Shown: in pieces, positions 6,135 through 30,344 of the stretch
How the letters are laid out: each line of letters opens with the position of its first letter
Numbering within the stretch: the first letter of the stretch is position 1
Source of the DNA: a virus
IMG/VR virus record: IMGVR_UViG_3300021960_000329
Location: 1-30,583 of that record
Strand: one strand, 5' to 3'
DNA length: 30,583 bases
Position numbers and translations under genes: made by a program
Notes under the pieces: generated by a model
Seen by the model: the letters and a program-made list of their open reading frames with translations, nothing else
Told to the model about the DNA's origin: nothing
Database searches by the model: none

Positions 6135-6484
6135 CAAATGATGAAAAAAATATAAAAGATGATTTTGAATACTCACGAGCAACATATTACGAACTTTTAG
6201 AAAAAGGCAAAGAGTCTTTAATGGACATGATGGAAGTTGCAAGGTCGTCAGAACACCCTCGTGCATACGAAGTATTGTCTAATCTTATCAAGAATATGGC
6301 AGATGTCAATGATAAATTGATGGAACTAAATAAAAAGAAAAAAGATTTAGATAGAAAAGAAGAAACAAAACAGGTAGGTAACACGACTAATAATTTGTTT
6401 GTTGGTACGACTGCCGACTTACAAAAATTATTAAGAGATGATGAGCAAGTGATTGATGTTACAAATGAGAACAATGCAGAATGA
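6131..6484 (+). CDS. gp16: Terminase small subunit gp16
   Basis: 117 residues, mostly predicted helix. The pattern DDFEYSRATYYELLEKGKE, then SEHPRAYEVLSNLIKNMADVN, then a lysine-rich coiled segment, is that of the gp16 family in T4-like phages. The protein forms oligomers that recognise concatemeric DNA and stimulate the gp17 ATPase and nuclease. It starts in an ATGA overlap with gene 15 and its end overlaps the start of gene 17, the usual arrangement. It is shorter than T4 gp16 (164 residues); the missing part corresponds to the variable C-terminus. Confidence 0.85.
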   Translation: MTNDEKNIKDDFEYSRATYYELLEKGKESLMDMMEVARSSEHPRAYEVLSNLIKNMADVNDKLMELNKKKKDLDRKEETKQVGNTTNNLFVGTTADLQKLLRDDEQVIDVTNENNAE

Positions 6485-8075
6485 ATACTATCTTGGTAAC
6501 CCACTCGTAAAAAGAGATGGTGTTATACAAGACTGGACTCAAGAAGATTTAAAAGAATATGCAAAATGTATGAAAAGTCCTGCATATTTCACAGAAAAAT
6601 ATATTAAGATTATTTCTCTTGATAGAGGTTTAGTGCCTTTTGATTTATATCCTTATCAGAAAAAAATGTTTGAACAGTTTCAAAGCGAACGATTCAACAT
6701 CGTCCTTGCGTGTCGCCAGTCGGGCAAATCTATATCTGCGTGTGCTTATCTACTATGGTTTGCATTATTTAATCCAGATAAAACAATTGCTGTTATGGCA
6801 AACAAAGGTGCAACTGCAAGAGAAATGTTAGGTCGTATCACTCTTATGTTAGAGAATCTGCCTTTCTTTTTACAACCAGGGTGTAAAGCATTAAACAAAG
6901 GGTCAATAGAGTTTTCTAATAATTCTCGTATAGTTGCGGCCGCTACATCAGGTAGTTCTATTCGTGGTATGTCTGTTAACTTACTATATCTTGATGAGTT
7001 TGCGTTTGTTGAACGTGCGGCCGAGTTCTATACATCAACATATCCTGTTGTATCATCTGGTAAAGACACAAAGATTATTGTAACATCTACTGCAAATGGT
7101 GTTGGTAATGTATTCTATAATATATGGCAGGGTGCAGAACAAGGTGTAAATGAATTTAAATCATTTAGAGTTGATTGGTGGGACGTGCCTGGTCGTGATG
7201 AACAATGGAAGATATCTACTATTGCAAACACATCACAACTACAATTTGACCAAGAGTTTGGTAATACATTCTTCGGTACAGGTGATACATTAATTAATGC
7301 AGAAACATTAATGAAACTGAAAGCAAAAAATCCTATTGAAGCACTAGAAGGTGGAAATCTTCTAGTGTATGAAAAGACTCAGAAAAACCATTCATATATT
7401 ATGACGGTCGATGTTTCAAAAGGTAGAGGTCAGGATTATTCTACTTTTACAATAATCGATATATCTACTTCGCCTTTTAGGCAAGTGGCGGTGTATCGCA
7501 ACAATGTTATTTCTCCGATACTCTACCCTAACATTATATATAAGTTTGCGAAAGTCTACAATGATGCATATATTGTTGTAGAAGCAAATGACCAAGGTGG
7601 TATTGTATGTAATGGATTATATCACGACTTCGAATACGAACATATGTATCTTGAATCTGCAGTCAAGGCAGACAAAATTGGTATAGAAATCAATCGTAAA
7701 TCAAAAAGAATCGGTTGCAGTTCATTCAAAGATTTACTTGAAAATAATAAGTTAGAAATAGTTGACCAAGAAACAATTGTAGAAATATCTACATTTGAAG
7801 CAAAAGGCCAGTCGTACGAAGCAACACCAGGTAACCATGATGATTTAGTTATGAATCTTGTATTGTTTGGTTACTTTGTGTACACAGAAGCATTTCAAGA
7901 TTTATCTGATATTAATCTCAAAGAAATGTTATTTGAAGATAGAATGAAACAAATTGAAGAAGATGTTGTCCCATTTGGTTTCCATGATGATGGTTCTAAT
8001 TGGGTTGAAGAAGAAGATAGAAAAAATCAACCTTGGTTTATAACATATGATTATGAAAGAGAGCAAGATTATTGA
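6474..8075 (+). CDS. gp17: Terminase large subunit gp17 (packaging ATPase/nuclease)
   Basis: About 533 residues. The N-terminal ATPase shows Walker A CRQSGKS (about residues 80-86), Walker B LLYLDEF with the catalytic Glu, and the coupling motif TSTANG. The C-terminal RNase H-like nuclease shows the three acidic positions in TVDVSKGRGQD, VVEANDQGG and DDLVMN. It translocates DNA into the prohead through the portal and cuts headful ends. I chose the ATG at 6474 because MQNEYYLGNP fits the family start. In-frame TTG 6453, ATG 6456 and ATG 6465 are also possible, none with a clear ribosome site. Only the T4 C-terminal tail is shorter (T4 610 residues). The overlap with gp16 is 11 bases. Confidence 0.95.
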   Translation: MQNEYYLGNPLVKRDGVIQDWTQEDLKEYAKCMKSPAYFTEKYIKIISLDRGLVPFDLYPYQKKMFEQFQSERFNIVLACRQSGKSISACAYLLWFALFNPDKTIAVMANKGATAREMLGRITLMLENLPFFLQPGCKALNKGSIEFSNNSRIVAAATSGSSIRGMSVNLLYLDEFAFVERAAEFYTSTYPVVSSGKDTKIIVTSTANGVGNVFYNIWQGAEQGVNEFKSFRVDWWDVPGRDEQWKISTIANTSQLQFDQEFGNTFFGTGDTLINAETLMKLKAKNPIEALEGGNLLVYEKTQKNHSYIMTVDVSKGRGQDYSTFTIIDISTSPFRQVAVYRNNVISPILYPNIIYKFAKVYNDAYIVVEANDQGGIVCNGLYHDFEYEHMYLESAVKADKIGIEINRKSKRIGCSSFKDLLENNKLEIVDQETIVEISTFEAKGQSYEATPGNHDDLVMNLVLFGYFVYTEAFQDLSDINLKEMLFEDRMKQIEEDVVPFGFHDDGSNWVEEEDRKNQPWFITYDYEREQDY

Positions 8076-8869
8076 CACTAGAACATGGACTTTTTACTCC
8101 CTCTAAAATACCAGAACTATTAGGTCTTGTATCAATTGTTATAAGTCCAACAGACTTGTGCAATCGTACATGTGAGTTCTGTCCACACTCTATGGGATTC
8201 CCAAATAAAAAGAATTATATGCATATAGTTCTTGCAAATAAACTTGCAGAAGAATTATCTGAACTAAAATGGAATGGTGTGATTAGTATATCTGGATATG
8301 GTGAACCATTACTACACCCAAATATTGACAACATTGTTAAAGCATTTACTAAAAGAAATATTAACACAAGACTTGTAACAAGTGGCGACAGAATATTAAA
8401 TGGTAAATTTACAGCAGAAGAAATAGATAGTTGGGGTCTTTTGTCTATAAAGATTGACTGTTATGATGGTCAAGATGATGTAGATAAGATGAATGAGATA
8501 CTCAAAGACTTAAAAACATATAAGAGAATTACAACTGGACCTACAGACTTATCAAATCGTGCAGGTTATTTGTGGTTTGCAAACAATATAAAAAAACCTT
8601 GTTATCAACCATCACTCAAATCTATTGTTGATTATAATGGTGATGTCTATGTTTGTTGTGAAGATTGGTCTAAAGAAACATCATTTGGTAATGTATACAA
8701 ACAATCATTTTCTTCCATATGGTTATCAGATGAACTACAAGATGTAAGAGAAAAACTACAAAATGGTATAAGAACGTTTTCTGCGTGTAAAAATTGTAAT
8801 ATGATGCCAGAAAATTCTCAAAATGAACAAGAAGCAGTTCAAATTTGGCAAAACTATAAATATATGTAA
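8072..8869 (+). CDS. Radical SAM enzyme with SPASM-like C-terminus (cargo gene)
   Basis: 265 residues. Cys30-x3-Cys34-x2-Cys37 (CNRTCEFC) is the [4Fe-4S] radical SAM motif; SGYGEPLLHP (about 74-83) is the GGEP-type SAM-binding strand. The C-terminal part has Cys177, CC at 195-196 and CKNC at 239-242, as in SPASM or twitch domains that bind extra Fe-S clusters and act on peptides or sugars. The start is a TTG at 8072 overlapping the gene 17 stop; no in-frame ATG precedes the cluster motif and the ribosome site is weak. It lies between terminase and tail sheath, which are usually adjacent in this phage group, so it looks like inserted cargo. The last codons contain the late promoter for gene 18. 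The substrate is unknown; a co-expressed virion protein or host peptide is possible. Confidence 0.85.
   Translation: MTLEHGLFTPSKIPELLGLVSIVISPTDLCNRTCEFCPHSMGFPNKKNYMHIVLANKLAEELSELKWNGVISISGYGEPLLHPNIDNIVKAFTKRNINTRLVTSGDRILNGKFTAEEIDSWGLLSIKIDCYDGQDDVDKMNEILKDLKTYKRITTGPTDLSNRAGYLWFANNIKKPCYQPSLKSIVDYNGDVYVCCEDWSKETSFGNVYKQSFSSIWLSDELQDVREKLQNGIRTFSACKNCNMMPENSQNEQEAVQIWQNYKYM
8855..8862 (+). promoter_or_regulatory. T4-type late promoter (TATAAATA) for tail sheath
   Basis: An exact TATAAATA octamer lies inside the last codons of the radical SAM gene (Asn-Tyr-Lys-Tyr-Met-stop). Transcription would begin near 8869, giving a leader of about 58 bases before gene 18 (ATG 8927), whose ribosome site is AAGGAAA. 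Placement in front of the strongly expressed sheath and tube genes supports function. Its position inside coding sequence leaves some doubt. Confidence 0.7.
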
Positions 8870-8926: not shown

Positions 8927-10666
8927 ATGGCACTTTCAACTCCTTCCGAATCTCCTGCGGTTGTAGTCAAGGAAATTGACCTCACTAGTTCAGTACCTGG
9001 TGTTCAGAGTACAACTGGTGCTTTCGTAGGTAATTTTAGATGGGGGCCTGTTGGTCAAAGAGTGCAAGTATCAAACGAAACAGAACTCGTTAATACTTTT
9101 GCCAATCCAGACTCCTATAACACAATAGATTTTCATACGGCTGCTTATTATCTAAAATACGGCAATAATCTTCAAGTTGTGCGTGAATCAACTACTGCTT
9201 CACTAAACTCTTGGGGAACTATATTCCAAACTGCCTCTGATTCTGCAGGTGGTGGTGATAAAATTGATAATAAAGTAAGTTTTGATGCTAATCTATCAAC
9301 ACTAGAAGCACAAGGTTATACCTTTATTGGTAGATATCCTGGTATTCTAGGAAACAGTTTAAAAGTAAGTATATGTCCTGGCGCAGACTCCTCAGGTATC
9401 TTTGATGCTTGGGCATACAAATCTTCATTTGACGCATATCCAAGCACTTCAACTTATGCTGATAATAGAAGTTCAAGTCTTGATGAAATGCACATCATAG
9501 TGGTTGACCAAGATGGTGAATTTACAGGAACTGCAGGTACAGTTCTTGAAAGATTCCCATTTGTATCACAGGCCGCAGACGCAAAAGCGGCAGATGGAAC
9601 ATCAATCTTTGCGAAAGATGTTATCAACCAGACTTCTGAATATGTTTATATGCTTAATGCAGTCGATTCAGCACACGCATCATTCGGTCAACCTGCAAGT
9701 GGGGCAAATAACTATAGAGGTTCTCACACAACCGATATAGAACTCGCAAATGGGGTAAATTCTGGCACACTTACTGCAACAGAATTTGCTCTTGGTCACG
9801 ACTTGTTTGAAGACAAAGATGTTGTTGAGATTGATTTCTTAATTGCGCCAGATAACTCAAGTTCTACACACATAACTGTCGTGAATGACCTTGTAGCAAA
9901 TGCTGCCGCAAGAAAAGACTGTATCGTAGTTGCTTCACCAAGAAGAAGTGATGTGGTTGGGGTAACATCTGCCGCAACTATTACAACTAATATTGTAAGT
10001 ACTGCAGATGATTTTACTAACTCATCATACTTGGTAGTTGATGGTAACTACTTAAAAGTATATGACAAGTATAATGACCAATACATTCAGATTCCAGCAT
10101 CTTCATCAACCGCTGGTATAATGGCCGCAACAGACAGAGATAGAGCACCTTGGTTTAGTCCTGCTGGACAAAGAAGAGGTCAATATCTTGGTGTAACTGC
10201 GATTGATTATATACCAACTAAAGCACAAAGAGATACTTTGTACAAAGCAGGTGTTAATCCAGTTGCCAATATACCTGGACAAGGAATTGTATTGTTTGGT
10301 GATAAAACTAAACTTGCAAGACCTTCTGCGTTTGACAGGATTAATGTTAGAAGACTATTCTTGGTACTTGAAAGAGCAATTTCAAGGGCCGCAGAAAGTG
10401 TTCTATTTGAATTCAATGATGAATTTACAAGAGCAGAATTCGTAAATATTGTTGAACCATTACTTCGTGAAGTGCAAGGTAGAAGAGGTATTACTGACTT
10501 TAGAGTTGTTTGTGATGAAACAAACAATACACAAGCAGTAATTGATAGAAATGAATTTGTTGCATCAATCTTCATTAAACCTGCCCGTTCTATTAACTAT
10601 GTAACACTTAACTTTGTTGCAGTTAGAACTGGTGTAGAGTTTACTGAAGTTGTTGGCACAGTATAA
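8927..10666 (+). CDS. gp18: Tail sheath protein gp18
   Basis: 579 residues (T4: 659). The N-terminal segment SPAVVVKEIDLTSSVPGVQS, followed by GAFVGNFRWGPVGQ, is the conserved start of contractile sheath proteins. The C-terminal part (NVRRLFLVLERAISRA, then VLFEFND and EVVGTV) is the conserved sheath core domain; the middle is the variable, surface-exposed domain. Hexamers stack around the gp19 tube and contract on infection. The ATG follows AATAAGGAAAACAAA. Gene 19 follows after 11 bases. The gene is rich in Ala-Ala pairs encoded GCC-GCN (see findings). Confidence 0.95.
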   Translation: MALSTPSESPAVVVKEIDLTSSVPGVQSTTGAFVGNFRWGPVGQRVQVSNETELVNTFANPDSYNTIDFHTAAYYLKYGNNLQVVRESTTASLNSWGTIFQTASDSAGGGDKIDNKVSFDANLSTLEAQGYTFIGRYPGILGNSLKVSICPGADSSGIFDAWAYKSSFDAYPSTSTYADNRSSSLDEMHIIVVDQDGEFTGTAGTVLERFPFVSQAADAKAADGTSIFAKDVINQTSEYVYMLNAVDSAHASFGQPASGANNYRGSHTTDIELANGVNSGTLTATEFALGHDLFEDKDVVEIDFLIAPDNSSSTHITVVNDLVANAAARKDCIVVASPRRSDVVGVTSAATITTNIVSTADDFTNSSYLVVDGNYLKVYDKYNDQYIQIPASSSTAGIMAATDRDRAPWFSPAGQRRGQYLGVTAIDYIPTKAQRDTLYKAGVNPVANIPGQGIVLFGDKTKLARPSAFDRINVRRLFLVLERAISRAAESVLFEFNDEFTRAEFVNIVEPLLREVQGRRGITDFRVVCDETNNTQAVIDRNEFVASIFIKPARSINYVTLNFVAVRTGVEFTEVVGTV

Positions 10667-21542: not shown

Positions 21543-23252
21543 ATGATAATTTTCAAGTCAATTAAGTATAAAAACTTTTTGTCAACTGGTAATAGTTTCA
21601 CCGAGATAGATTTTACAAAGAGTAAGACAACACTCGTAGTCGGACAAAATGGTGCAGGTAAATCTACTATGTTAGATGCACTATCATTTGCACTCTTTGG
21701 TAAACCTCACAGAAACATACAGAAGAAACAGATAATAAACTCTATTAATAGAAAAGATTGTGTTGTTGAAGCAGAGTTTAGTATCGGTTCGTCTACTTAT
21801 AGAGTAGTACGAGGTATCAACCCTAATCTGTTTGAGATATGGAAATCTGGTACACTAATCAATCAATCTTCTCACGCCAAAGACTATCAAAAGATTTTAG
21901 AACAAAACATCTTGAAACTAAATCATAAATCCTTTCATCAGGTGGTCGTGTTGGGTAGTAGTTCTTTCATTCCTTTCATGCAACTATCCAACACAGACCG
22001 AAAGTTCGTAATAGAGGACTTACTAGACATTAATGTATTCTCTAAAATGAATGTACTACTGAAAGAAAAACAGTCTGCACTCAAGAACGAATTAAACGAA
22101 TTAACGAATAAGATAGAGATTATCAAGGCAAAGATAGACACACAGAACAAGTATATCAAAGACGTACAGATACTTACTGAACAGAATATTAAATCAAAAG
22201 AAAATACCAAGAAGAATAAACAAACAGAAGTAGAAACACTACAAGACGAAAATATAAAACTATCAGAAATAATCGAAACGAAACTACCAGAACTACAAGA
22301 TGAATTACAAAAACTACAAGACAAAAGACAAACATTATTATCTTACACACACCAATTTAAAACACAAATGAAAACATTGGCCAAGGACACAAAGTTCTAT
22401 GAAGAGAACGAACAATGTCCTACCTGTTCTCAAGATATAAGTCAGGAGTTAAGAGATGAAAAAATTACTAACGCCAAAGATAAGGCAAAGGAATTCCAAA
22501 CGGCGTACGACAATGCTACGGAACAAGAAAAGAGTATTGGCGATACAATCGAGGGTGTTAACGTTCACCTAACAGAAATGAGAAACAATCAGAGTACTAT
22601 CAACTCAAACAATAAGATGATAAAGACTCTGCAAAAAGAAATAACAGAAATTGATAAGGACCTGTCAAGTACTGCGATTGCAGACTTACAGCAGGCTCGA
22701 ACAGATTTAGATACCTTGAATAAGGATAAAGATAAGACGACTGAAGATAAACTGAATATCTTCGATATGTATTCTTACAATCAAGTTATCGGCGAGTTAC
22801 TTAAAGATACTGGTATAAAGACGAAAATTATCAAACAATATCTTCCAGTCATTAATAAATTGACTAACCAGTATCTTCAAGTATTAGACTTCTTTGTACA
22901 CTTTGACCTAGACGAATCGTTTAAAGAAACTATTCGTTCAAGACATAGAGATGATTTTAGTTACGACTCATTCTCTGAAGGTGAGAAACAAAGAATCGAC
23001 CTTTCTTTATTGTTTACTTGGCGTCAAATTGCCAAAATGAAAAACTCTGTATCAACAAATTTATTGATACTTGATGAAACATTTGATTCAAGTCTTGACT
23101 ATGATGGTGTAGAGAATCTATTTAAGATACTTCATACACTACCAGATGATAGTAATATATTTGTGATATCGCACAAAGGAGATATTCTTGATGGCAAATT
23201 TGACGACAAGATTGAATTTCATAAAGAAAAAAACTTTAGTAAAATTAAATGA
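21543..23252 (+). CDS. gp46: Recombination endonuclease subunit gp46 (Rad50/SbcC-like)
   Basis: 569 residues (T4: 560). Walker A GQNGAGKS (34-41), a long coiled coil about 170-450 interrupted by the zinc hook CPTC (292-295), ABC signature SFSEGEKQR (about 476-484), Walker B LLILDETFDSS (about 506-516) and the switch His in ISHKGD. It is the ATPase partner of gp47. It starts at the predicted transcription start of its own promoter. Its stop overlaps the first sulfotransferase-like gene in ATGA (23249-23252); in T4 the next major gene would be 45, so three cargo genes are inserted here. Confidence 0.96.
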   Translation: MIIFKSIKYKNFLSTGNSFTEIDFTKSKTTLVVGQNGAGKSTMLDALSFALFGKPHRNIQKKQIINSINRKDCVVEAEFSIGSSTYRVVRGINPNLFEIWKSGTLINQSSHAKDYQKILEQNILKLNHKSFHQVVVLGSSSFIPFMQLSNTDRKFVIEDLLDINVFSKMNVLLKEKQSALKNELNELTNKIEIIKAKIDTQNKYIKDVQILTEQNIKSKENTKKNKQTEVETLQDENIKLSEIIETKLPELQDELQKLQDKRQTLLSYTHQFKTQMKTLAKDTKFYEENEQCPTCSQDISQELRDEKITNAKDKAKEFQTAYDNATEQEKSIGDTIEGVNVHLTEMRNNQSTINSNNKMIKTLQKEITEIDKDLSSTAIADLQQARTDLDTLNKDKDKTTEDKLNIFDMYSYNQVIGELLKDTGIKTKIIKQYLPVINKLTNQYLQVLDFFVHFDLDESFKETIRSRHRDDFSYDSFSEGEKQRIDLSLLFTWRQIAKMKNSVSTNLLILDETFDSSLDYDGVENLFKILHTLPDDSNIFVISHKGDILDGKFDDKIEFHKEKNFSKIK

Positions 23253-23953
23253 AAAACTATACATTGATTGGTTTTCCCAGGACTGGTACTGCGTGGTTTA
23301 AATATCATTTTCGTGAGTATTATGGCAATTCAAATTATTTAGGCGAATATTTTAGTAAATTTGAATATACACATATAGAAAATAATGTATATTATAAAGT
23401 AAGAAGAAACCAATCTTCTCAAAGATATTCTAAAAAAATATCTTTTTTAAATTCAGAAAGAATTAACAATAATGAATATTATATCAAATATATGGTTCAT
23501 CATATAAATGAATTAGATGAAAATTTTCCTAATTGGTGGAATGAATTTTATAAAGACTATGAAAAAATCAAAGTTCTTAATAAAAATGTATGGCGAATAT
23601 TTTTAAGCAATAGTTATCAAGATTATACTAAATGGAAAAAAACAGGAAATTGGAAAGTAAAAAATTTTAAATTAGAAAAATTTTATACTAGTTTTGAATA
23701 TATACAAATTTTTTGTAAGTTATACAATGACTATATTAATTTTGATAGATATGATGTTTTGTTTGATGTGAATAAAATAGACAATGACTTTGTTATGAAT
23801 TATTTAAATAACAATACATATGTTAATAAACCTAGATATATTCACGACTATGAAAAGTATTTGATAAGTGATATTGATTTAGTCAAAGAAGAATTAAAAA
23901 AAGAATTGAAAAAATATAATTTAGAATTTTTAGACAATGGGAAAATACTATAA
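23249..23953 (+). CDS. Sulfotransferase-like protein, paralog 1 of 3
   Basis: 234 residues. The N-terminus KNYTLIGFPRTGTAWFKYHF has the 5'-phosphosulfate P-loop of PAPS-dependent sulfotransferases (consensus PxxGTTW). The middle VWRIFLSNSY is in the place of the Arg...Ser 3'-phosphate motif, and the C-terminal YDVLFDVNKIDNDFVMNYL matches the YEDL...I..FLG region of the family. It is clearly homologous to the next two genes, sharing LGEYF, WWNEFYKDYEKIK and the end DNGKI. It is strikingly AT-rich compared with gene 46. It overlaps gene 46 by four bases and the next paralog by 17. The acceptor (glycan, lipid or protein Tyr) is unknown, as is activity. Confidence 0.72.
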   Translation: MKNYTLIGFPRTGTAWFKYHFREYYGNSNYLGEYFSKFEYTHIENNVYYKVRRNQSSQRYSKKISFLNSERINNNEYYIKYMVHHINELDENFPNWWNEFYKDYEKIKVLNKNVWRIFLSNSYQDYTKWKKTGNWKVKNFKLEKFYTSFEYIQIFCKLYNDYINFDRYDVLFDVNKIDNDFVMNYLNNNTYVNKPRYIHDYEKYLISDIDLVKEELKKELKKYNLEFLDNGKIL

Positions 23954-24608
23954 AAATTATATATTGATTGGATATCCTAGAACAGGTACATCTTGGTTAG
24001 GAACACATTTTATTGAGTATTATGGTAAACCAAATTATTTAGGCGAATATTTTTCGGAAATAAATGATGAGCAATCTTATATTCAAAAAGTTTCTTTTTT
24101 AGAAAAAGAAAGAGAGATAAATCAAGAGGAATATTACATCAAATATTTATTCTATCAAATGAAAGAGATAGAACAATTTTATCCTAATTGGTTTGATAAT
24201 TTTTATAAAGATTTTGAAAAAGTTAAACTATTAAATAAAAATGTATGGCGAATATTTTTAAGTCAAAACTATCAATTAGAAAATGATAAATTTGAAAGCG
24301 GTAGTTGGAAAATACCTGATTATAAATTAAAACAATTCTCCGTTAGTTTAAATCAAATAAAGAAATTTGCAAAAGATTATTCTGATTTTTATTATTATAG
24401 TAAGTATAATACTTTATTAGATTACGATAAAATAGATAATGAGTATATGATGAAATATTTAGGAACAAAGACTTATAGGAAAAGAAACAGATATATCCAC
24501 GACTACGAAAGTTTTTTGTTAGGTGATATTAATTTAATAAAAGATAGTTTAAAAAAAGAATTTGCAAGATATAATATAGAAATGTTAGACAATGGAAAAA
24601 TCTCGTAA
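23937..24608 (+). CDS. Sulfotransferase-like protein, paralog 2 of 3
   Basis: 223 residues. It repeats the plan of the upstream gene: P-loop LIGYPRTGTSWLGTHF, then NYLGEYF, a FYKDFEKVKLLNKNVWRIFLS middle segment starting near residue 95, and the C-terminal YNTLLDYDKIDNEYMMKYLG. The start ATG lies inside the last codons (Asn-Gly of DNGKI) of paralog 1, and its own end DNGKI contains the start of paralog 3, the footprint of tandem duplication. No ribosome site is present, so translation is probably coupled to the upstream gene. Strong AT bias as in the neighbours. The conserved catalytic-region Ser/Thr of the P-loop is intact, so it may be active. Confidence 0.72.
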   Translation: MGKYYKNYILIGYPRTGTSWLGTHFIEYYGKPNYLGEYFSEINDEQSYIQKVSFLEKEREINQEEYYIKYLFYQMKEIEQFYPNWFDNFYKDFEKVKLLNKNVWRIFLSQNYQLENDKFESGSWKIPDYKLKQFSVSLNQIKKFAKDYSDFYYYSKYNTLLDYDKIDNEYMMKYLGTKTYRKRNRYIHDYESFLLGDINLIKDSLKKEFARYNIEMLDNGKIS

Positions 24609-25248
24609 AAATTATGTGCTAATAGGTTATCAAAGGTCAGGTACAACTTGGTTAAGTATGCATTTTCGCAGATATTATGGAAAAGAAAAAAGTTTAGGCG
24701 AATGGTTTGGAGAAACTACAAAGATAAGTTTTCAAGAAAAAATTTCTTTTTTAGAAGATGAAAGAAAAAAAGGTGAAGAATATTTTATAAAATGGATGGT
24801 TCATCAAATACAGAATTGTTCAGAATGGTGGAATGAATTTTATAAAGACTACGAAAAAATAAAATTATTAAATCTTAATGTTTGGGATATTTTTTTAAGT
24901 GAAACATATCAAAGACATATAAAATGGACCTATACAAATCTTTGGATGGAAAAAGAATTCAATATGACAAATTTTTCTGTAGATTTAAAATGGATAAAAC
25001 AATTTGTTCAACAGTATATTGAATATTTAAAATTTAGAAACTACAACACAATTTTTAATTATGATAAGATAACAGATGAATATGTTATGAATTATTTAGG
25101 AAATGAGGAATATAAATTTATTAAAATATATAGAAAAGATTATGAAAAATATTTAATTGAAGATGTAGAACTTATAAAAAATTGTTTAATAAAAGAATTA
25201 GAAAAAAATGGAATAAATTGTTTACAAAATGGAAAAATTAAGTTATAA
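24592..25248 (+). CDS. Sulfotransferase-like protein, paralog 3 of 3
   Basis: 218 residues. The P-loop LIGYQRSGTTWLSMHF is closest to the sulfotransferase consensus (SGTTW). Then come LGEWF, WWNEFYKDYEKIKLLNLNVW, DIFLSETY (Asp replaces the Arg seen at this position in paralogs 1 and 2, so the 3'-phosphate site may differ) and the C-terminal YNTIFNYDKITDEYVMNYLG. The protein ends QNGKIKL; the corresponding ATG is present there but opens only a short frame, suggesting a former junction. The last codons hold both boxes of the gene 45 promoter. The three differ enough to suggest different acceptors, but that is speculation. Confidence 0.72.
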   Translation: MEKSRKNYVLIGYQRSGTTWLSMHFRRYYGKEKSLGEWFGETTKISFQEKISFLEDERKKGEEYFIKWMVHQIQNCSEWWNEFYKDYEKIKLLNLNVWDIFLSETYQRHIKWTYTNLWMEKEFNMTNFSVDLKWIKQFVQQYIEYLKFRNYNTIFNYDKITDEYVMNYLGNEEYKFIKIYRKDYEKYLIEDVELIKNCLIKELEKNGINCLQNGKIKL

Positions 25249-25249
25249 T
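25221..25249 (+). promoter_or_regulatory. Sigma70-type promoter for gene 45
   Basis: TTTACA (25221-25226), 17 bases, TATAAT (25244-25249). The -35 box codes Leu-Gln of the third sulfotransferase-like protein and the -10 box overlaps its stop codon. Transcription should begin near 25256, with a leader of about 20 bases that carries AAGGAG (25264-25269) before ATG 25276. Confidence 0.78.
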
Positions 25250-25275
25250 ATTAGAATTAAAATAAGGAGTATATT

Positions 25276-25950
25276 ATGGAACTAACTGAAAATAGTCTTG
25301 AGGTATTGAGAAATTTTTCTACCATAAATCAGAACATACTGATTAAACCTGGTAATGAAATTAGAACAATATCTGAAGCAAGAAATGTTTTGACAAAGGC
25401 GCACGTTGATGTTGAATTCCCAAGTCAATTCGCAATCTATGATTTGAACCAGTTTATTAGTGTTCTTTCTCTCGTAGATAAACCAAACCTAGAATTTAGT
25501 GAAAACTATGTAACGATTAATGATGGTAGTGGACTATCAAGTGTTAAGTATTTCTTCTCATCACCTGATACGATTACAACATCAGAAAAAGATATTACTA
25601 TGCCAGAGGCAGAAGTTAAGTTTACACTAGATGAAAAAACACTATCTAAACTAAGAAGTGCATCATCTGCCTTAGGAATCAGAACTTTAATTATAACATC
25701 AAAAAGCGGTTCAATAAACTTAGCAATATCTGATATTGACAATGCCACTGGTAATGTTTATAATGTTGATGTTGCAGGAACTTGTGATTCAGAAAACTTT
25801 ACGTTCATTCTTAACATGGAAAACTTAAAACTTTTTGCAGGTGATTATGAAGTAAGCATATCATCTAAACTAATATCACATTTCAAACACAAAGAAAAAG
25901 ATGTGCAGTATTGGATTGCACTCGAAAAATCATCTAACTATGGAGGATAA
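25276..25950 (+). CDS. gp45: Sliding clamp gp45
   Basis: 224 residues (T4: 228). The C-terminal YWIALEKSSNYGG and the two-domain beta pattern, with FAIYDLNQFISVLSL in the first half, identify the trimeric processivity clamp. It holds the DNA polymerase on DNA and, bound by gp55 and the coactivator gp33, also activates late transcription. The ribosome site AAGGAG is ideal and the gene has its own promoter. Gene 45 heads a compact run of overlapping genes that reaches 30344. The stop overlaps the next ATG (TAATG). Confidence 0.95.
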   Translation: MELTENSLEVLRNFSTINQNILIKPGNEIRTISEARNVLTKAHVDVEFPSQFAIYDLNQFISVLSLVDKPNLEFSENYVTINDGSGLSSVKYFFSSPDTITTSEKDITMPEAEVKFTLDEKTLSKLRSASSALGIRTLIITSKSGSINLAISDIDNATGNVYNVDVAGTCDSENFTFILNMENLKLFAGDYEVSISSKLISHFKHKEKDVQYWIALEKSSNYGG

Positions 25951-26171
25951 TGATGGCAAAAGATAAACCAGATACACAGATAGAGCAACTAGTAGGACTC
26001 TCAAACAGAGTTGCAAGAAGTTCTATTGCAGTCGTTGATGCAGTCGCACAACGTGGTGGTTTCAAAGGCGAAGAGTTTTCAACTATTGGCGCCTTGAGAG
26101 ACCAGTGTGTTCAAATGATTCAAATCATTGAGTCAAGAGAACAACAATCTGCTATGACTGTTGAAGATTAA
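25950..26171 (+). CDS. Small protein between gp45 and gp44, function unknown
   Basis: 73 residues, not recognised. It starts in a TAATG overlap with the gene 45 stop, with GGAGG (25942-25946) at good distance; a second ATG follows at 25953. The sequence is helical, with QIEQLVGLSNRVARSS, then GGFKGEEFSTIGALRDQC and QMIQIIESREQQ. It has no membrane segment. The clean ribosome site and tight packing argue that it is a real gene rather than chance. Location between clamp and clamp loader suggests a role in replication or in clamp-dependent transcription, but nothing in the sequence shows it. T4 rpbA sits on the other side of gene 45 and is not similar. Confidence 0.8.
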   Translation: MMAKDKPDTQIEQLVGLSNRVARSSIAVVDAVAQRGGFKGEEFSTIGALRDQCVQMIQIIESREQQSAMTVED

Positions 26172-26195
26172 TAATTTTATGATAAGAACTATATT

Positions 26196-27134
26196 ATGTC
26201 AAGTGAATTTTTGTGGGTCGAGAAGTATCGACCAAAGAGAATATCTGAAGTTATTCTACCAGATAATCTCAAAAATACTTTTATTAAAATTGTTGAAAAC
26301 AAAGAAATACCTAATATGCTCTTTACAGGTGGTGCTGGCCTCGGTAAAACTACCGTCGCCAAGGCCCTCTGTAATGAACTACAATTAGATTATATTCTAG
26401 TCAATGGTTCCGAAGAAGGTAACATTGACACATTAAGAAACAAAATCAAACAGTTTGCAAGTACTGTATCACTTCAAGGTGGTTACAAAGTTGTTATACT
26501 AGATGAGGCAGATTATCTTAATGCACAGTCAACTCAACCTGCATTGAGAGGATTCATTGAAGAATTTTCAAACAATTGCAGATTCATTCTAACTTGTAAT
26601 TTCAAGAACAGAATCATAGAACCACTACACTCTCGGTGTAGTCTGTATGAGTTCAATACAACTAAAACAGAGATGGTCAATCTCGCACGTCAGTTTATGG
26701 ATAGAGTTTCGAATATTCTTGCTGACGAGAAAGTATCTTTTGAAAAGAGAGTTGTTGCTGAACTGATAATGAAATATTGTCCTGATTGGCGTAGAGTATT
26801 GAATGAACTACAAAGATATTCTATTAGTGGTACAATCGACTCTGGTATTCTTGACAATGTATCAGATACAAACTATAATAACTTATTCGGTTTCTTGAAA
26901 GAGAAAGACTTTAAGAAAATGCGACAATGGGTTGCAAACAATATTGATGTAGACTTTTCTGTTATTATACGAAATGTCTATGACAAGATGGAAGAAGTTG
27001 TAGATGGTTCATCTATACCTCAACTTGTTCTTATACTTGCAGACTATCAATACAAGAACGCCTTTGTTGCAGACCACGAACTAAATACTGTTGCATGTCT
27101 AACGGAGATTATGGCCAATGTCAAATTCAAATAA
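26196..27134 (+). CDS. gp44: Clamp loader large subunit gp44
   Basis: 312 residues (T4: 319). AAA+ motifs: Walker A GGAGLGKTT (45-53), Walker B ILDEAD (101-106) and the SRC arginine finger (146-148). The N-terminal WVEKYRPK is typical of clamp loaders. Four gp44 and one gp62 open and close the gp45 ring using ATP. The ATG has no clear ribosome site (AAGAACTATATT); a weak promoter-like TATGAT at 26178 is too poor to call. The end overlaps a cytidylyltransferase-like gene by 17 bases, whereas in T4 gene 62 follows directly. Confidence 0.95.
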   Translation: MSSEFLWVEKYRPKRISEVILPDNLKNTFIKIVENKEIPNMLFTGGAGLGKTTVAKALCNELQLDYILVNGSEEGNIDTLRNKIKQFASTVSLQGGYKVVILDEADYLNAQSTQPALRGFIEEFSNNCRFILTCNFKNRIIEPLHSRCSLYEFNTTKTEMVNLARQFMDRVSNILADEKVSFEKRVVAELIMKYCPDWRRVLNELQRYSISGTIDSGILDNVSDTNYNNLFGFLKEKDFKKMRQWVANNIDVDFSVIIRNVYDKMEEVVDGSSIPQLVLILADYQYKNAFVADHELNTVACLTEIMANVKFK

Positions 27135-27567
27135 AATAGGATTCACTTGTTCTACATTCGACTTGTTTCATGCAGGTCATGTGGCGATGTTGAAAGAATG
27201 TAAAGCAAATTGCGACTATCTGATTGTGGGTTTACAGACTGACCCAAGTATTGATAGAGAAGAAAAGAATAAACCTGTACAAAGTATCGTAGAACGATAT
27301 GTACAATTGTCTGCATGTAAGTATGTAGATGAGATTGTGCCATACGAAACAGAAAAAGATTTATTAGATTATCTTAAACTACACGAGAAAACAATAGATG
27401 TTCGTTTTGTTGGTGAAGAATATGCAGATAAAGACTTCACAGGTAGAGAATTATGCTCATCAGGTTATACTCTTGATGCAGATAAAATGCAACTGTTCTT
27501 AAATAGAAGAAGTCATAGTTTCAGTTCATCAGAATTACGAGAAAGAATTAAAAATGCATCTTCTTAA
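27118..27567 (+). CDS. Cytidylyltransferase-like protein (TagD/glycerol-3-phosphate type)
   Basis: 149 residues, the full size of a single-domain nucleotidyltransferase. The motif FDLFHAGHVAML (HxGH at 18-21) and the C-terminal SFSSSELRERI (the SSSxLR counterpart of ISSTxxR) define the family, which transfers CMP or AMP to a phosphate such as glycerol 3-phosphate or to related sugar or alcohol phosphates. The middle NKPVQSIVERYVQLSACKYV is also typical of TagD-like enzymes. It overlaps gene 44 by 17 bases and the next radical SAM gene by 14. Phage copies could feed surface polymer or lipid head-group changes; the substrate cannot be read from the sequence. Confidence 0.82.
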   Translation: MSNSNKIGFTCSTFDLFHAGHVAMLKECKANCDYLIVGLQTDPSIDREEKNKPVQSIVERYVQLSACKYVDEIVPYETEKDLLDYLKLHEKTIDVRFVGEEYADKDFTGRELCSSGYTLDADKMQLFLNRRSHSFSSSELRERIKNASS

Positions 27568-28183
27568 AAGTTCTCAATATTTTTCTAGAGGTGTAAATAT
27601 AGACATAAGTAACAAATGTATTTTACAATGTCCTGCTTGTGATAGACAAACAAACAGAAGTATGGTTCATAAAGCAAAAGACATAACTTTAGAAAATTAC
27701 GAAAAACTTTTAGATACTTTCCCCAAAATAATTATGTGCGGTCAAATATCTGACCCCATATATCACCCTAAATTTTTAGAATTATTAAAGATGTCTAAAA
27801 AATTAAAACTACTTGATATCTCGACTAATGGTTCTGGTAAAAAAGAAAAGTGGTGGGAAGAAGCATTTAATATAGGAATAGAAAATAAAAATACTGAATG
27901 GAGATTTGCACTTGATGGTTTACCTAGTGAAAGTCATATTTATAGAATAAATCAAAAAGGTGAACAAGTTTGGGAAATGATGAAAATGGGAAGAGAAATG
28001 GGTGCTAATATAACTTGGCAATATATTCCTTTTCTTTATAATGAAAATCATGTTGATGAAGCATTGCAATTAGCAAAAGAATATGGTATGAAGTTTTTAT
28101 TAAAGATATCAAGTAGACACCCAGAAGGTATGAAACCTAGTAAAAAGGAGTTAAGAATTGACAGAATCAGAGTCAAAGATTAA
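27554..28183 (+). CDS. Radical SAM enzyme, N-terminal catalytic part of a split gene
   Basis: 209 residues. Cys22-x3-Cys26-x2-Cys29 (CILQCPAC) binds the [4Fe-4S] cluster; GQISDPIYHPKF replaces the usual GGEP motif at about 56-67; LDISTNGSG follows and WRFALDGLPSESH fits the next strand of the barrel. The barrel seems to end just before the stop at 28183, and the SPASM-like Cys region expected next is encoded in another frame starting at TTG 28158. The two pieces together (about 310 residues) are the normal length of such an enzyme. It is more AT-rich than genes 44 and 62. The substrate is unknown; with the cytidylyltransferase-like gene it could act in surface or peptide modification. Confidence 0.78.
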   Translation: MHLLKSSQYFSRGVNIDISNKCILQCPACDRQTNRSMVHKAKDITLENYEKLLDTFPKIIMCGQISDPIYHPKFLELLKMSKKLKLLDISTNGSGKKEKWWEEAFNIGIENKNTEWRFALDGLPSESHIYRINQKGEQVWEMMKMGREMGANITWQYIPFLYNENHVDEALQLAKEYGMKFLLKISSRHPEGMKPSKKELRIDRIRVKD

Positions 28184-28475
28184 GTTAAAACCAAAATGTA
28201 TATCGTACAAAGAACCTGCCTTAACTGCAGAAGGATTTTTTTTACCTTGTTGTTGGTGTGATGGTAGAGATAAATGGTTTAAAGATAAAGGTTTTCTTGA
28301 CCCAAAACTAAATATAGAAAATGTAGAATATCCTGTTACAGATATATTTAATTCTAAAACTTGGATTGACTTTTTTGACAAAATAGAATATGATAGTGAT
28401 TATCCTAATGTGTGTTTAGAACATTGTGGAATAAATGAAATAACAAATAAGAAGATTATAAATGAACCCATTTGA
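28158..28475 (+). CDS. SPASM-like C-terminal part of the split radical SAM enzyme
   Basis: 105 residues starting at TTG 28158, with AAGGAG (28145-28150) seven bases upstream inside the preceding gene. The pattern KCISYKEPALTAEGFFLPCC, then W-x-D...KDKGF...IFNSKTWIDFF, then CLEHCGIN is that of a SPASM or twitch domain: a Cys, a G-x2-x2-PCCW turn and a final CxxxCG. No radical SAM core is present, so it should work with the product of the upstream gene. The frame is +1 relative to it; the two frames share only 26 bases. Whether this is a natural two-subunit enzyme, a decaying gene or a sequence error is open. The end overlaps gene 62 by 14 bases. Confidence 0.68.
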   Translation: MTESESKIKLKPKCISYKEPALTAEGFFLPCCWCDGRDKWFKDKGFLDPKLNIENVEYPVTDIFNSKTWIDFFDKIEYDSDYPNVCLEHCGINEITNKKIINEPI

Positions 28476-28839
28476 ATATTTAAAAGCAATAAACGATACT
28501 AAAAAAGATATTATGGTTGATGACCTTGCAGAGAAATCATACAATGGTTTCATGGTCAATCGTGGTCTATCTTACTTTCAAGATACAGTTCTTATGGCAA
28601 ATGAAATGAATGTCAATCATCACATTGATGGTAGGTTACAATTCCAGTTTTTTATAAATATTATTAGACCACGGAAAAGATTTAGTAAGTGGTTTAAACC
28701 TGAAACAGAAAATGATGTGGAAGTAATTAAAGAGTATTATGGATATAGCAACGACAAAGCAAGACAAGTCCTTCGCTTATTTTCCAAAGAACAAATAGAA
28801 GAATTAAAACAAAAGGTATATAAAGGTGGAAGAAAGTAA
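28462..28839 (+). CDS. gp62: Clamp loader small subunit gp62
   Basis: 125 residues. The segments KSYNGFMVNRGLSYFQDTVL, then NEMN, a RLQFQFFINIIRPRKRFSKW motif near residue 57, and YYGYSNDKARQ are those of gp62 in marine T4-like phages, which is shorter than T4 gp62 (187). It is the single non-ATPase subunit of the clamp loader with four gp44. In T4, genes 44 and 62 overlap and are translationally coupled; here two cargo genes (three reading frames) separate them. It overlaps the preceding frame by 14 bases and regA by 14. Confidence 0.9.
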   Translation: MNPFEYLKAINDTKKDIMVDDLAEKSYNGFMVNRGLSYFQDTVLMANEMNVNHHIDGRLQFQFFINIIRPRKRFSKWFKPETENDVEVIKEYYGYSNDKARQVLRLFSKEQIEELKQKVYKGGRK

Positions 28840-29242
28840 TCTTATAGAATGGACACCTAATTCAATGCTCGAAGTAGTATTGAATGAACCAGACGATTTC
28901 CTAAAAGTTCGTGAAACACTTACAAGAATAGGTGTGGCTTCAAGAAAAGACAAGAAGTTATACCAATCATGCCATATACTACACAAACAAGGCAGATATT
29001 TTATCGTACATTTCAAAGAACTATTTTTACTTGATGGTAAGAAGTCAGACTTAGAAGAATCTGATATTGCAAGAAGAAACACAATCGCACAACTTATGAG
29101 TGATTGGGGTTTAATTACAATAGACGGTAATACTAAACTTGACCCTCTTGCACCATTAAGACAAATCAAAATCATCTCATTTAAGGATAAAGATGATTGG
29201 GAATTGTGTCCAAAATATAATATAGGTAATAAATTAAATTAA
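28826..29242 (+). CDS. regA: Translational repressor RegA
   Basis: 138 residues from GTG 28826. The block PDDFLKVRETLTRIGVASRK, then KDKKLYQSCHILHKQGRYF, then IVHFKELFLLDG is nearly the T4 RegA sequence. RegA binds AU-rich ribosome sites of early mRNAs, including genes 44, 45 and 62, and its own. The GTG has AAAGG (28812-28816) upstream. The ATG at 28865 (MLEVVLNEPDDF) aligns exactly with the T4 start and is a real alternative giving 125 residues, but it lacks a ribosome site. The stop overlaps the next start (TAATG at 29240-29244). Confidence 0.95.
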   Translation: MEESNLIEWTPNSMLEVVLNEPDDFLKVRETLTRIGVASRKDKKLYQSCHILHKQGRYFIVHFKELFLLDGKKSDLEESDIARRNTIAQLMSDWGLITIDGNTKLDPLAPLRQIKIISFKDKDDWELCPKYNIGNKLN

Positions 29243-29721
29243 TGCAATTCAATTGGTACAAAGTCAATTTCTCTGAAGAAGAAGGTGAATTCGATAGATT
29301 GGCAGGAGACATTAGTGAACATTTGAAACAAGAAGATGAGTTTCATAATTCATTAATGAAACAAATGCAAACTTCTTATCGAAGTGTAAGACCTACTACT
29401 TTGACAAATTGGATTTGGTCAAGAGTGCAAAATACTGATTCGTGGTATACAGGAACTATGAATGATATTAACCGTGTCATAAGACAAAATGCCGCTTCTT
29501 CTGGTAGAAGAGATATCTACAATGTTATAAAAGAATTAGTATCTGGTAGGATTAGATGTCCTATTATCTACAAATTTAGCGAATCTGAACTAATAAATAA
29601 ATTCGGTTTATATACTTTAGTAGGTGGTAATACTAGATTAATGGCATGTAATCTTCTTGCTATTCAACCTAAAGTTATTATTATAGAACAAAGTTTTAAA
29701 TTAAAAGATATAGTTAGGTAA
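29242..29721 (+). CDS. ParB/sulfiredoxin-like fold protein, function unknown
   Basis: 159 residues. The stretch IRCPIIYKF, a spacer, then YTLVGGNTRLMACNLLAIQP with PKVIII is the pattern of the ParB N-terminal/sulfiredoxin fold, in which G-x-H/N/T-R-L follows a strand and precedes a helix. This fold binds nucleotide or acts as a nuclease or kinase in different families. The N-terminal 80 residues are helical with many Trp, Arg and Ser (TNWIWSRVQNTDSWYTGTMN). A lysine or acidic catalytic set is not obvious. It starts in a TAATG overlap with regA and its stop overlaps the next start. The same location in related phages often holds unknown genes. Confidence 0.6.
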   Translation: MQFNWYKVNFSEEEGEFDRLAGDISEHLKQEDEFHNSLMKQMQTSYRSVRPTTLTNWIWSRVQNTDSWYTGTMNDINRVIRQNAASSGRRDIYNVIKELVSGRIRCPIIYKFSESELINKFGLYTLVGGNTRLMACNLLAIQPKVIIIEQSFKLKDIVR

Positions 29722-30344
29722 TGTTTGAAGCAGATGAATCTTTTATTGATATATGTAACAAAAATATAGAACTAATAAGTCAAGTAAAAGATGATGTTAA
29801 ACCTGTAAAACTTAATTCCTTTTCTAATTTTAAAAAATATGAAGATGAATTTTTTTTACAGTTTAATCATTTTTCTAAAAAAAGATATTTAAAATATCTA
29901 AAAAAAAATCTTATTGAAGACTTTGATGAAAATCAAAGAACAAAGTTAAACATAAAAGATGAAAAATCAAGTGTTCCTAATGAGAAACATTGGGTAGAAG
30001 ATATACCTGTTGTAAAGAAATTATCTGAACATTTATATTCTAAAATTTTTAATACACACTCAATCGTTATTTGGACTAGCATTAGTGAAAATGATAAAGG
30101 AACAGATTGGCATAAAGATTTTAATAATGAGGGTGTACCCACATATTTAATATGTGCAAATATAATAGGAAATACTCACTGGCAATTTAAAGATTATGAT
30201 GATATTTATATGTCTGCTGGTGATATGTTAGTTATAAATGGTAGTGTTGAGCATAAAGTAACAACAAAAGATTTAAGAGTAACTCTTGCAGGACACTCTA
30301 ATTATAATAATTTAAAAAAAGTATTTACTTTTAATGAATTCTAA
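29721..30344 (+). CDS. 2OG-Fe(II) oxygenase-like (cupin) protein
   Basis: 207 residues. His131-x-Asp133 (WHKDFN), a distal His178 (GSVEHKV) and Arg186 (DLRVTLAGHSN) form the metal- and 2-oxoglutarate-binding pattern of the Fe(II) dioxygenase double-stranded beta-helix. Strands between (PTYLICANIIG, HWQFKD, MSAGDMLVING) fit the fold. The N-terminal 90 residues are lysine-rich and unlike anything I recognise. It would hydroxylate a nucleic acid base, protein or small molecule. It is very AT-rich, starts in a TAATG overlap, and its 3' end holds the -35 box of the hsp20 promoter. Function beyond the fold is unknown. Confidence 0.65.
   Translation: MFEADESFIDICNKNIELISQVKDDVKPVKLNSFSNFKKYEDEFFLQFNHFSKKRYLKYLKKNLIEDFDENQRTKLNIKDEKSSVPNEKHWVEDIPVVKKLSEHLYSKIFNTHSIVIWTSISENDKGTDWHKDFNNEGVPTYLICANIIGNTHWQFKDYDDIYMSAGDMLVINGSVEHKVTTKDLRVTLAGHSNYNNLKKVFTFNEF

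Follow-up and report, generated by a model that had tools for sequence, protein, structure and literature searches.

A radical SAM gene of a marine viral genome is found as two overlapping reading frames, with a ribosome site at the break, and the question arises whether these frames encode two subunits of one enzyme or are the remains of a single gene interrupted by a sequencing error or an inactivating mutation, or joined by ribosomal frameshifting. The locus is located in a 30,583-base virus record of IMG/VR (hereafter the window, which means this whole stretch of DNA), and T4-type genes surround the pair. The first gene is named here the core and the second one the partner.

The two overlapping genes and their surroundings in the window

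The features of the locus are listed in Table 1. The sequence-only reading had described the coordinates of both halves, the frame, the TTG start, the AAGGAG and the in-frame stop, and all of them agree to the base with the sequence and the list of open reading frames. The partner frame is +1 relative to the core and both genes overlap by 26 bases. Given the in-frame TAA, the TTG is the sole ATG, GTG or TTG codon ahead of the conserved part of the partner. The ribosome site, a 6-base match to AAGGAGG, is among the two best matches of the 17 gene starts scored in the window, and it is equalled by 1 of the 16 others. The conservation of the TTG alone is weak evidence because the core's own I/V-D/E codons at this position partly force it. 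The joint length of the two products had been considered normal, and this holds when 209 plus 105 residues are compared with the 302 residues of a naturally fused relative (L007).

Table 1. Coordinates of the core and partner genes, their signals and the neighbouring genes in the window
Feature	Position	Strand	Details
Clamp-loader-type ORF	26196-27134		Counterpart in L003 (3064-3996) matches Gp44_lid
Cytidylyltransferase-like gene, upstream neighbour	27118..27567	+	PF01467, E 1.3e-14
Predicted radical SAM core subunit gene	27554..28183	+	209 aa; ATG start; TAA stop at 28181-28183; CX3CX2C in codons 22-29 (27617-27640)
Ribosome site of the partner gene, AAGGAG	28145..28150	+	7-base spacer to TTG
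TAA closing the partner's frame upstream of TTG	28152..28154	+	Read from the sequence
Putative twitch-like auxiliary-cluster subunit (partner) gene	28158..28475	+	105 aa; TTG start
Clamp loader A subunit	28462-28839		Profile matches
RegA-type translational regulator	28826-29242		Profile matches

The cytidylyltransferase-like gene sits between clamp loader genes and shares 14 bases with the core gene, and both are possibly in one operon. It is also present in L008, L010 and L002, the last one being identical to the window, and in L003 a clamp-loader gene lies immediately upstream of the core. Downstream of the RegA-type gene there are two ORFs (29242-30344), the second of which matches phrog_4992 weakly (E 1.6e-5, function unknown). 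Elsewhere in the window, a second radical SAM gene with a TTG start (8072-8869), placed between the ORFs 6453-8075 and 8927-10666, is fused to a clear SPASM domain (PF13186, E 2.8e-13; PF04055, E 4.6e-10). Three tandem ORFs of 218-234 aa at 23249-25248 are apparent paralogues with a common IGxxRxGTxW start; they look sulphotransferase-like by eye, with no convincing Pfam match.

Conservation and arrangement of the pair in its relatives

A second contig (L002) is identical to positions 24554-28834 of the window (4281 bases), and the same frames and overlap recur in L003/L004, L008, L009 and L010, the split being also present in L011. Identity to the window amounts to 65-70% for the full-length cores of L003, L008 and L010 and to 55-71% for the partners. 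In the cultured Pelagibacter phage Mosig, an isolate sequenced at 348x coverage (PMC7892664, partial text), the pair is annotated as two separate genes that overlap by 8 bases. The first bears the name 'putative molybdenum cofactor biosynthesis enzyme', whereas the second is called 'hypothetical protein'. Another Mosig gene annotated as a molybdenum cofactor enzyme (Mosig_00083, L012 4141-5007) has neither CX3CX2C by eye nor a Pfam match, and this name looks wrong.

Core and partner are both under purifying selection. Pairwise dN/dS values in the clade of the window, calculated with unsaturated dS only, were 0.10-0.27 for cores (dS was saturated in one of the six comparisons between cores) and 0.05-0.35 for partners. 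In L003, L008, L009 and L010, pN was well below pS in both halves alike and, since the overlap and frame of the window recur in these same relatives, they are more than chance.

Profile scans of viral contigs revealed 226 stretches with partner relatives and 471 with core relatives, the best 80 of each being kept, and a profile scan of genome contigs gave 7 loci, one of them (L177, a weak match) being dropped. Domain HMMs run on the stop-to-stop frames of 178 records yielded 146 distinct rows: 86 core-partner, 36 partner-core, 8 fused, 14 with core only and 2 with partner only. A score filter left 126 pairs (83 core-partner, 36 partner-core and 7 fused, or 84, 35 and 7 when L058, with the order N-C-N-C, is reassigned), and the 20 rows dropped were the 14 core-only, the 2 partner-only and 4 weak pairs. 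No core was found within 1500 bases upstream in 31 of the 36 partner-core rows, some of which have less than 1500 bases of sequence on that side.

The bias of fetching loci by their partner was avoided by counting the 80 viral loci (the best 80 of 471) that had been retrieved with core patterns only. These comprised 63 core-partner, 8 partner-core, 5 fused and 4 loci without adjacent partner. Two of these last four belong to one virus (L035/L109/L110), where the partner lies past a 550-codon open frame (L035 802-3267), and the cores of the other two are near a contig end. A search for fused and split forms in relatives had been proposed from the window alone; both exist, and the split form is far commoner (71/80 split and adjacent against 5/80 fused). 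Thus, the split is the rule in the family. The second gene starts before the end of the first gene's stop in 68 of 72 non-redundant split pairs, a count that depends on a best-of-candidates choice of start and leaves aside one of 73 pairs, without usable start. A ribosome-site match precedes the second gene in 24/72 pairs against 16.5% in the control, a moderate enrichment family-wide that counts as weak evidence.

Separate translation into two subunits, favoured from the beginning by the well-placed ribosome site, is strongly supported by the reversed order of 35/126 pairs and by the intervening open frame of L035/L109, because a frame break or a frameshift could give neither of them. In a tree built from the cores of 80 non-redundant pairs, 2 changes account for the partner-core order without L058 and 3 with it, and 6 for the fused state; on the partner tree, built from few columns, the order needs 4. 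On the core tree, the reversed order corresponds to two clades and the fused forms are sporadic. Fusion may be the derived state, because the two-gene state is common and fusions occur dispersed over this tree, which is unrooted. For the same reasons, the proposal that a former single gene had been divided is unsupported as stated.

The partner looks mostly viral, considering that the scan of genome contigs gave 7 loci, one of them weak, and that among 289 genomes from the class of G002 the partner was found in one, G002 itself. A split pair is present in L172 (5327-6279) and L173, on contigs of 174 kb and 228 kb binned as Hyphomicrobiales, and the L172 pair, surrounded by bacterial-looking genes by eye, is a cellular case. 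Four partner-core pairs in a row occur on one contig (L037 153-4993), which suggests duplication as a module, and L128 (2986-4200) has two partner domains after a single core, the more distant one lying 409 bases downstream.

Features of the two predicted subunits

The window core carries the CX3CX2C motif (C22, C26 and C29), which is present in 125/126 family cores. Its match to PF04055 (E 1.4e-5, 25.8 bits) is under the gathering score of 29.5, a curated threshold and not a biological feature, and its radical SAM assignment is therefore based on motif and fold. It matches phrog_21308 (E 6.4e-22), and the sole match of the core profile among PDB sequences was GDGT-MAS (E 5e-4). In the predicted model of the fused relative L007, obtained with split relatives as rows (pLDDT 90.5, pTM 0.88), residues 11-184 form a partial (beta/alpha)6 barrel, with six strands alternating with helices; this observation refers to L007 alone. 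A low-confidence stretch (190-195) separates the sixth strand of the core from the auxiliary domain, at the place where the genes of the window divide. The comparison of this model with radical SAM structures by VIA gave Z values of 13-19, including SuiB (Z 19.0, 259 aligned, 4.1 A), MoaA (Z 18.4, 252 of 326 aligned, 3.9 A) and BtrN (Z 16.0, 221 of 246 aligned, 3.6 A), and L007 is thus predicted to fold like these three enzymes.

Auxiliary clusters of twitch and SPASM domains are bound by motifs of the type CX9-15GX4C ... CX3C, and a full SPASM domain shows a seven-cysteine pattern. The window partner has ligands for one cluster only (C14-X11-G26-X4-C31, C32 and C86-X3-C90) and lacks CX3CX2C in its sequence. 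Its residues P30, C31, C32, C86 and C90 are invariant across 73 aligned partners, and the cysteines of PCC and CX3C are found in 126/126 pairs. C14 is kept in 110/126, 15 of the other 16 being gaps, at least some of which are trimmed domain ends; the first part of the motif in its strict form, CX9-15GX4C, is met in 88/126 partners, and the full seven-cysteine SPASM pattern in 0/126.

PF13186 matches 40/73 partners at E <= 0.01 (best 1.4e-7), and the window partner itself showed no match in Pfam (PF13186 included), PHROG or NCBIfam, with none to NF033640. Its AlphaFold model (pLDDT 86.3, pTM 0.77) had no significant fold match when searched alone, the best Foldseek result being SpeY (E 2.8). 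VIA, with 33 chains aligned, retained two rows only, both twitch enzymes: BtrN, at residues 166-239 of its chain (Z 2.5, rmsd 3.0 over 73 residues), and SpeY (Z 2.2, rmsd 8.7). Searches of PDB sequences with partner profiles gave nothing significant, with BtrN at E about 1. From its cysteine pattern, with four or five conserved cysteines, the partner is classed as a putative small, one-cluster, twitch-like domain, and it appears to be a free-standing second Fe-S part of a radical SAM enzyme. This half had earlier been described as SPASM-like; twitch-like fits better because the ligands are those of one cluster and the seven-cysteine pattern is absent from all 126 partners.

Proposed two-subunit enzyme, alternatives and known systems

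The pair of the window is most probably a two-subunit twitch radical SAM enzyme produced from translationally coupled genes. The core subunit would form the partial barrel and bind the SAM-cleaving [4Fe-4S] cluster, and the partner, started independently at the TTG behind AAGGAG by reinitiation or coupling, would be a small subunit holding one auxiliary Fe-S cluster. Both proteins may associate where fused enzymes have their linker, rebuilding an architecture of the BtrN/MoaA type. The core would then generate the 5'-deoxyadenosyl radical and abstract a hydrogen atom from the substrate, and the partner's cluster would probably accept an electron, as proposed for BtrN, PqqE and SuiB. In these fused substrate-oxidising enzymes the electron is likely accepted by the auxiliary cluster, and BtrN oxidises an aminocyclitol (PMC9012708, partial text).

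A census of the gene neighbours of the family, in which 150 of 153 distinct proteins (168 chosen at first) were scanned and raw counts were taken without a background set, revealed Radical_SAM (10), DegT/DnrJ/EryC1 (7), class V aminotransferase (6), nitroreductase (5) and Asp/Arg hydroxylase (4), together with several T4-type core genes. The DegT-type aminotransferases, nitroreductases and radical SAM genes, with the carbamoyltransferase gene near the pair in Mosig and the cytidylyltransferase-like gene of the window, suggest small-molecule or sugar chemistry. It could be speculated that the substrate is a sugar-like small molecule undergoing a sugar-type dehydrogenation, as part of a modification of glycans or of the cell surface by the phage.

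The main alternative, considered unlikely, is that the partner forms no structural half of the active site and acts as a free electron carrier with one cluster, like a ferredoxin dedicated to the core, supplying it with electrons or withdrawing them. This would agree with the occurrence of the partner as a protein of its own whichever gene comes first, and also where another gene lies between both, and an obligatory intermolecular electron transfer has been reported for PapB (PMC10470005, partial text). However, the partner has a twitch motif and not a ferredoxin motif, it is fused behind the core in 7/126 pairs, and in the model of one such fused pair it packs like BtrN/MoaA. Furthermore, the divergence of the partner tracks that of the neighbouring core (Mantel r 0.50 for distances of 79 pairs, 0/1000 permutations as high), a correlation for which linkage alone would suffice.

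A programmed +1 ribosomal frameshift joining both frames in the clade of the window is far less probable. The second frame is +1 in this clade and in 59/83 core-partner pairs, and the overlap 28155-28183 is conserved in the core's frame, but the remaining core-partner pairs are +2 (21/83) or 0 (3/83), the partner-core order does not allow such a joining, the partner possesses a start and a ribosome site of its own, and no obvious slippery site is seen by eye in the overlap. As a general explanation, programmed frameshifting is rejected by the partner-core order and by the +2 and 0 frames. An error of assembly or sequencing, or a frameshift that recently inactivated the gene, had been retained by the sequence-only reading. 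No evidence was found in favour of this possibility, which has a negligible probability and is refuted by the identical second contig, the diverged relatives with the same frames and split, the two annotated genes of the Mosig isolate and the purifying selection on both genes, which also rule out a pseudogene.

If the two-subunit reading is true, core and cluster could be purified, reduced, mutated and recombined separately. What the auxiliary cluster does in enzymes of the twitch and SPASM types is a standing question, and a difficult one to test, since the domain is not easily detached undamaged from a single chain. The results also suggest that complete radical SAM enzymes made of two parts are present in many marine phages, with a small half that lacks annotation or bears the name 'hypothetical', so that these enzymes may be counted as truncated. 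It is conceivable, although less probable than not, that marine T4-like viruses possess a radical SAM system of modular type, whose auxiliary-cluster domain would be a free-standing, exchangeable subunit acting in trans, cores and partners would be duplicated as modules (L037, L058 and L128) and one kind of core would be re-equipped for different substrates.

A description of a separate twitch or SPASM subunit was not found in the available parts of the literature searched, which lay mostly outside subscription journals. Radical SAM genes have been reported in marine T4-like phages, with 12 in one environmental genome (PMC5332604, partial text) and radical SAM cassettes in pelagimyophages (PMC7029224, partial text). 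The cassette of Campylobacter phage CP220 is similar in its consecutive radical SAM genes amid sugar-type enzymes in a phage genome, but the partner profile found no matching gene near its cores, which are distant (33% identity). In the lipoyl synthase LipS1/LipS2, one radical SAM task is also split over two gene products (PMC9585515, partial text). Both products, however, are complete radical SAM proteins, each carrying two clusters and performing one of two steps, whereas the partner of the window is devoid of CX3CX2C.

Among enzymes with a core and an auxiliary-cluster domain, the SPASM maturases SuiB, SkfB, anSME and PqqE, to which L007 is a good fold match, differ in that they are one chain, as a rule with two auxiliary clusters and seven cysteine ligands. 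The family NF033640 (N_Twi_rSAM of NCBIfam) carries a twitch-type cysteine motif before the radical SAM domain, which is the order of the reversed pairs; nevertheless, it is one chain and its sequence likeness is distant (31.2 bits for the window core, with a cut-off of 170). Genes with this N-terminal twitch adjoin split pairs in L171 (3716-4954), L043 and L182, and the corresponding cysteine order was seen by eye in L178, L180, L181, L182 and L184. The standard form is a one-chain enzyme in which the twitch domain follows the core. BtrN, SpeY and MoaA, with a fused twitch, share with the pair a partial-barrel core with CX3CX2C and a domain for one auxiliary cluster, and L007 aligns over nearly all of BtrN; in these enzymes the twitch is the C-terminal part of one chain, whereas that of the window is a separate gene, which in the family is often located upstream.
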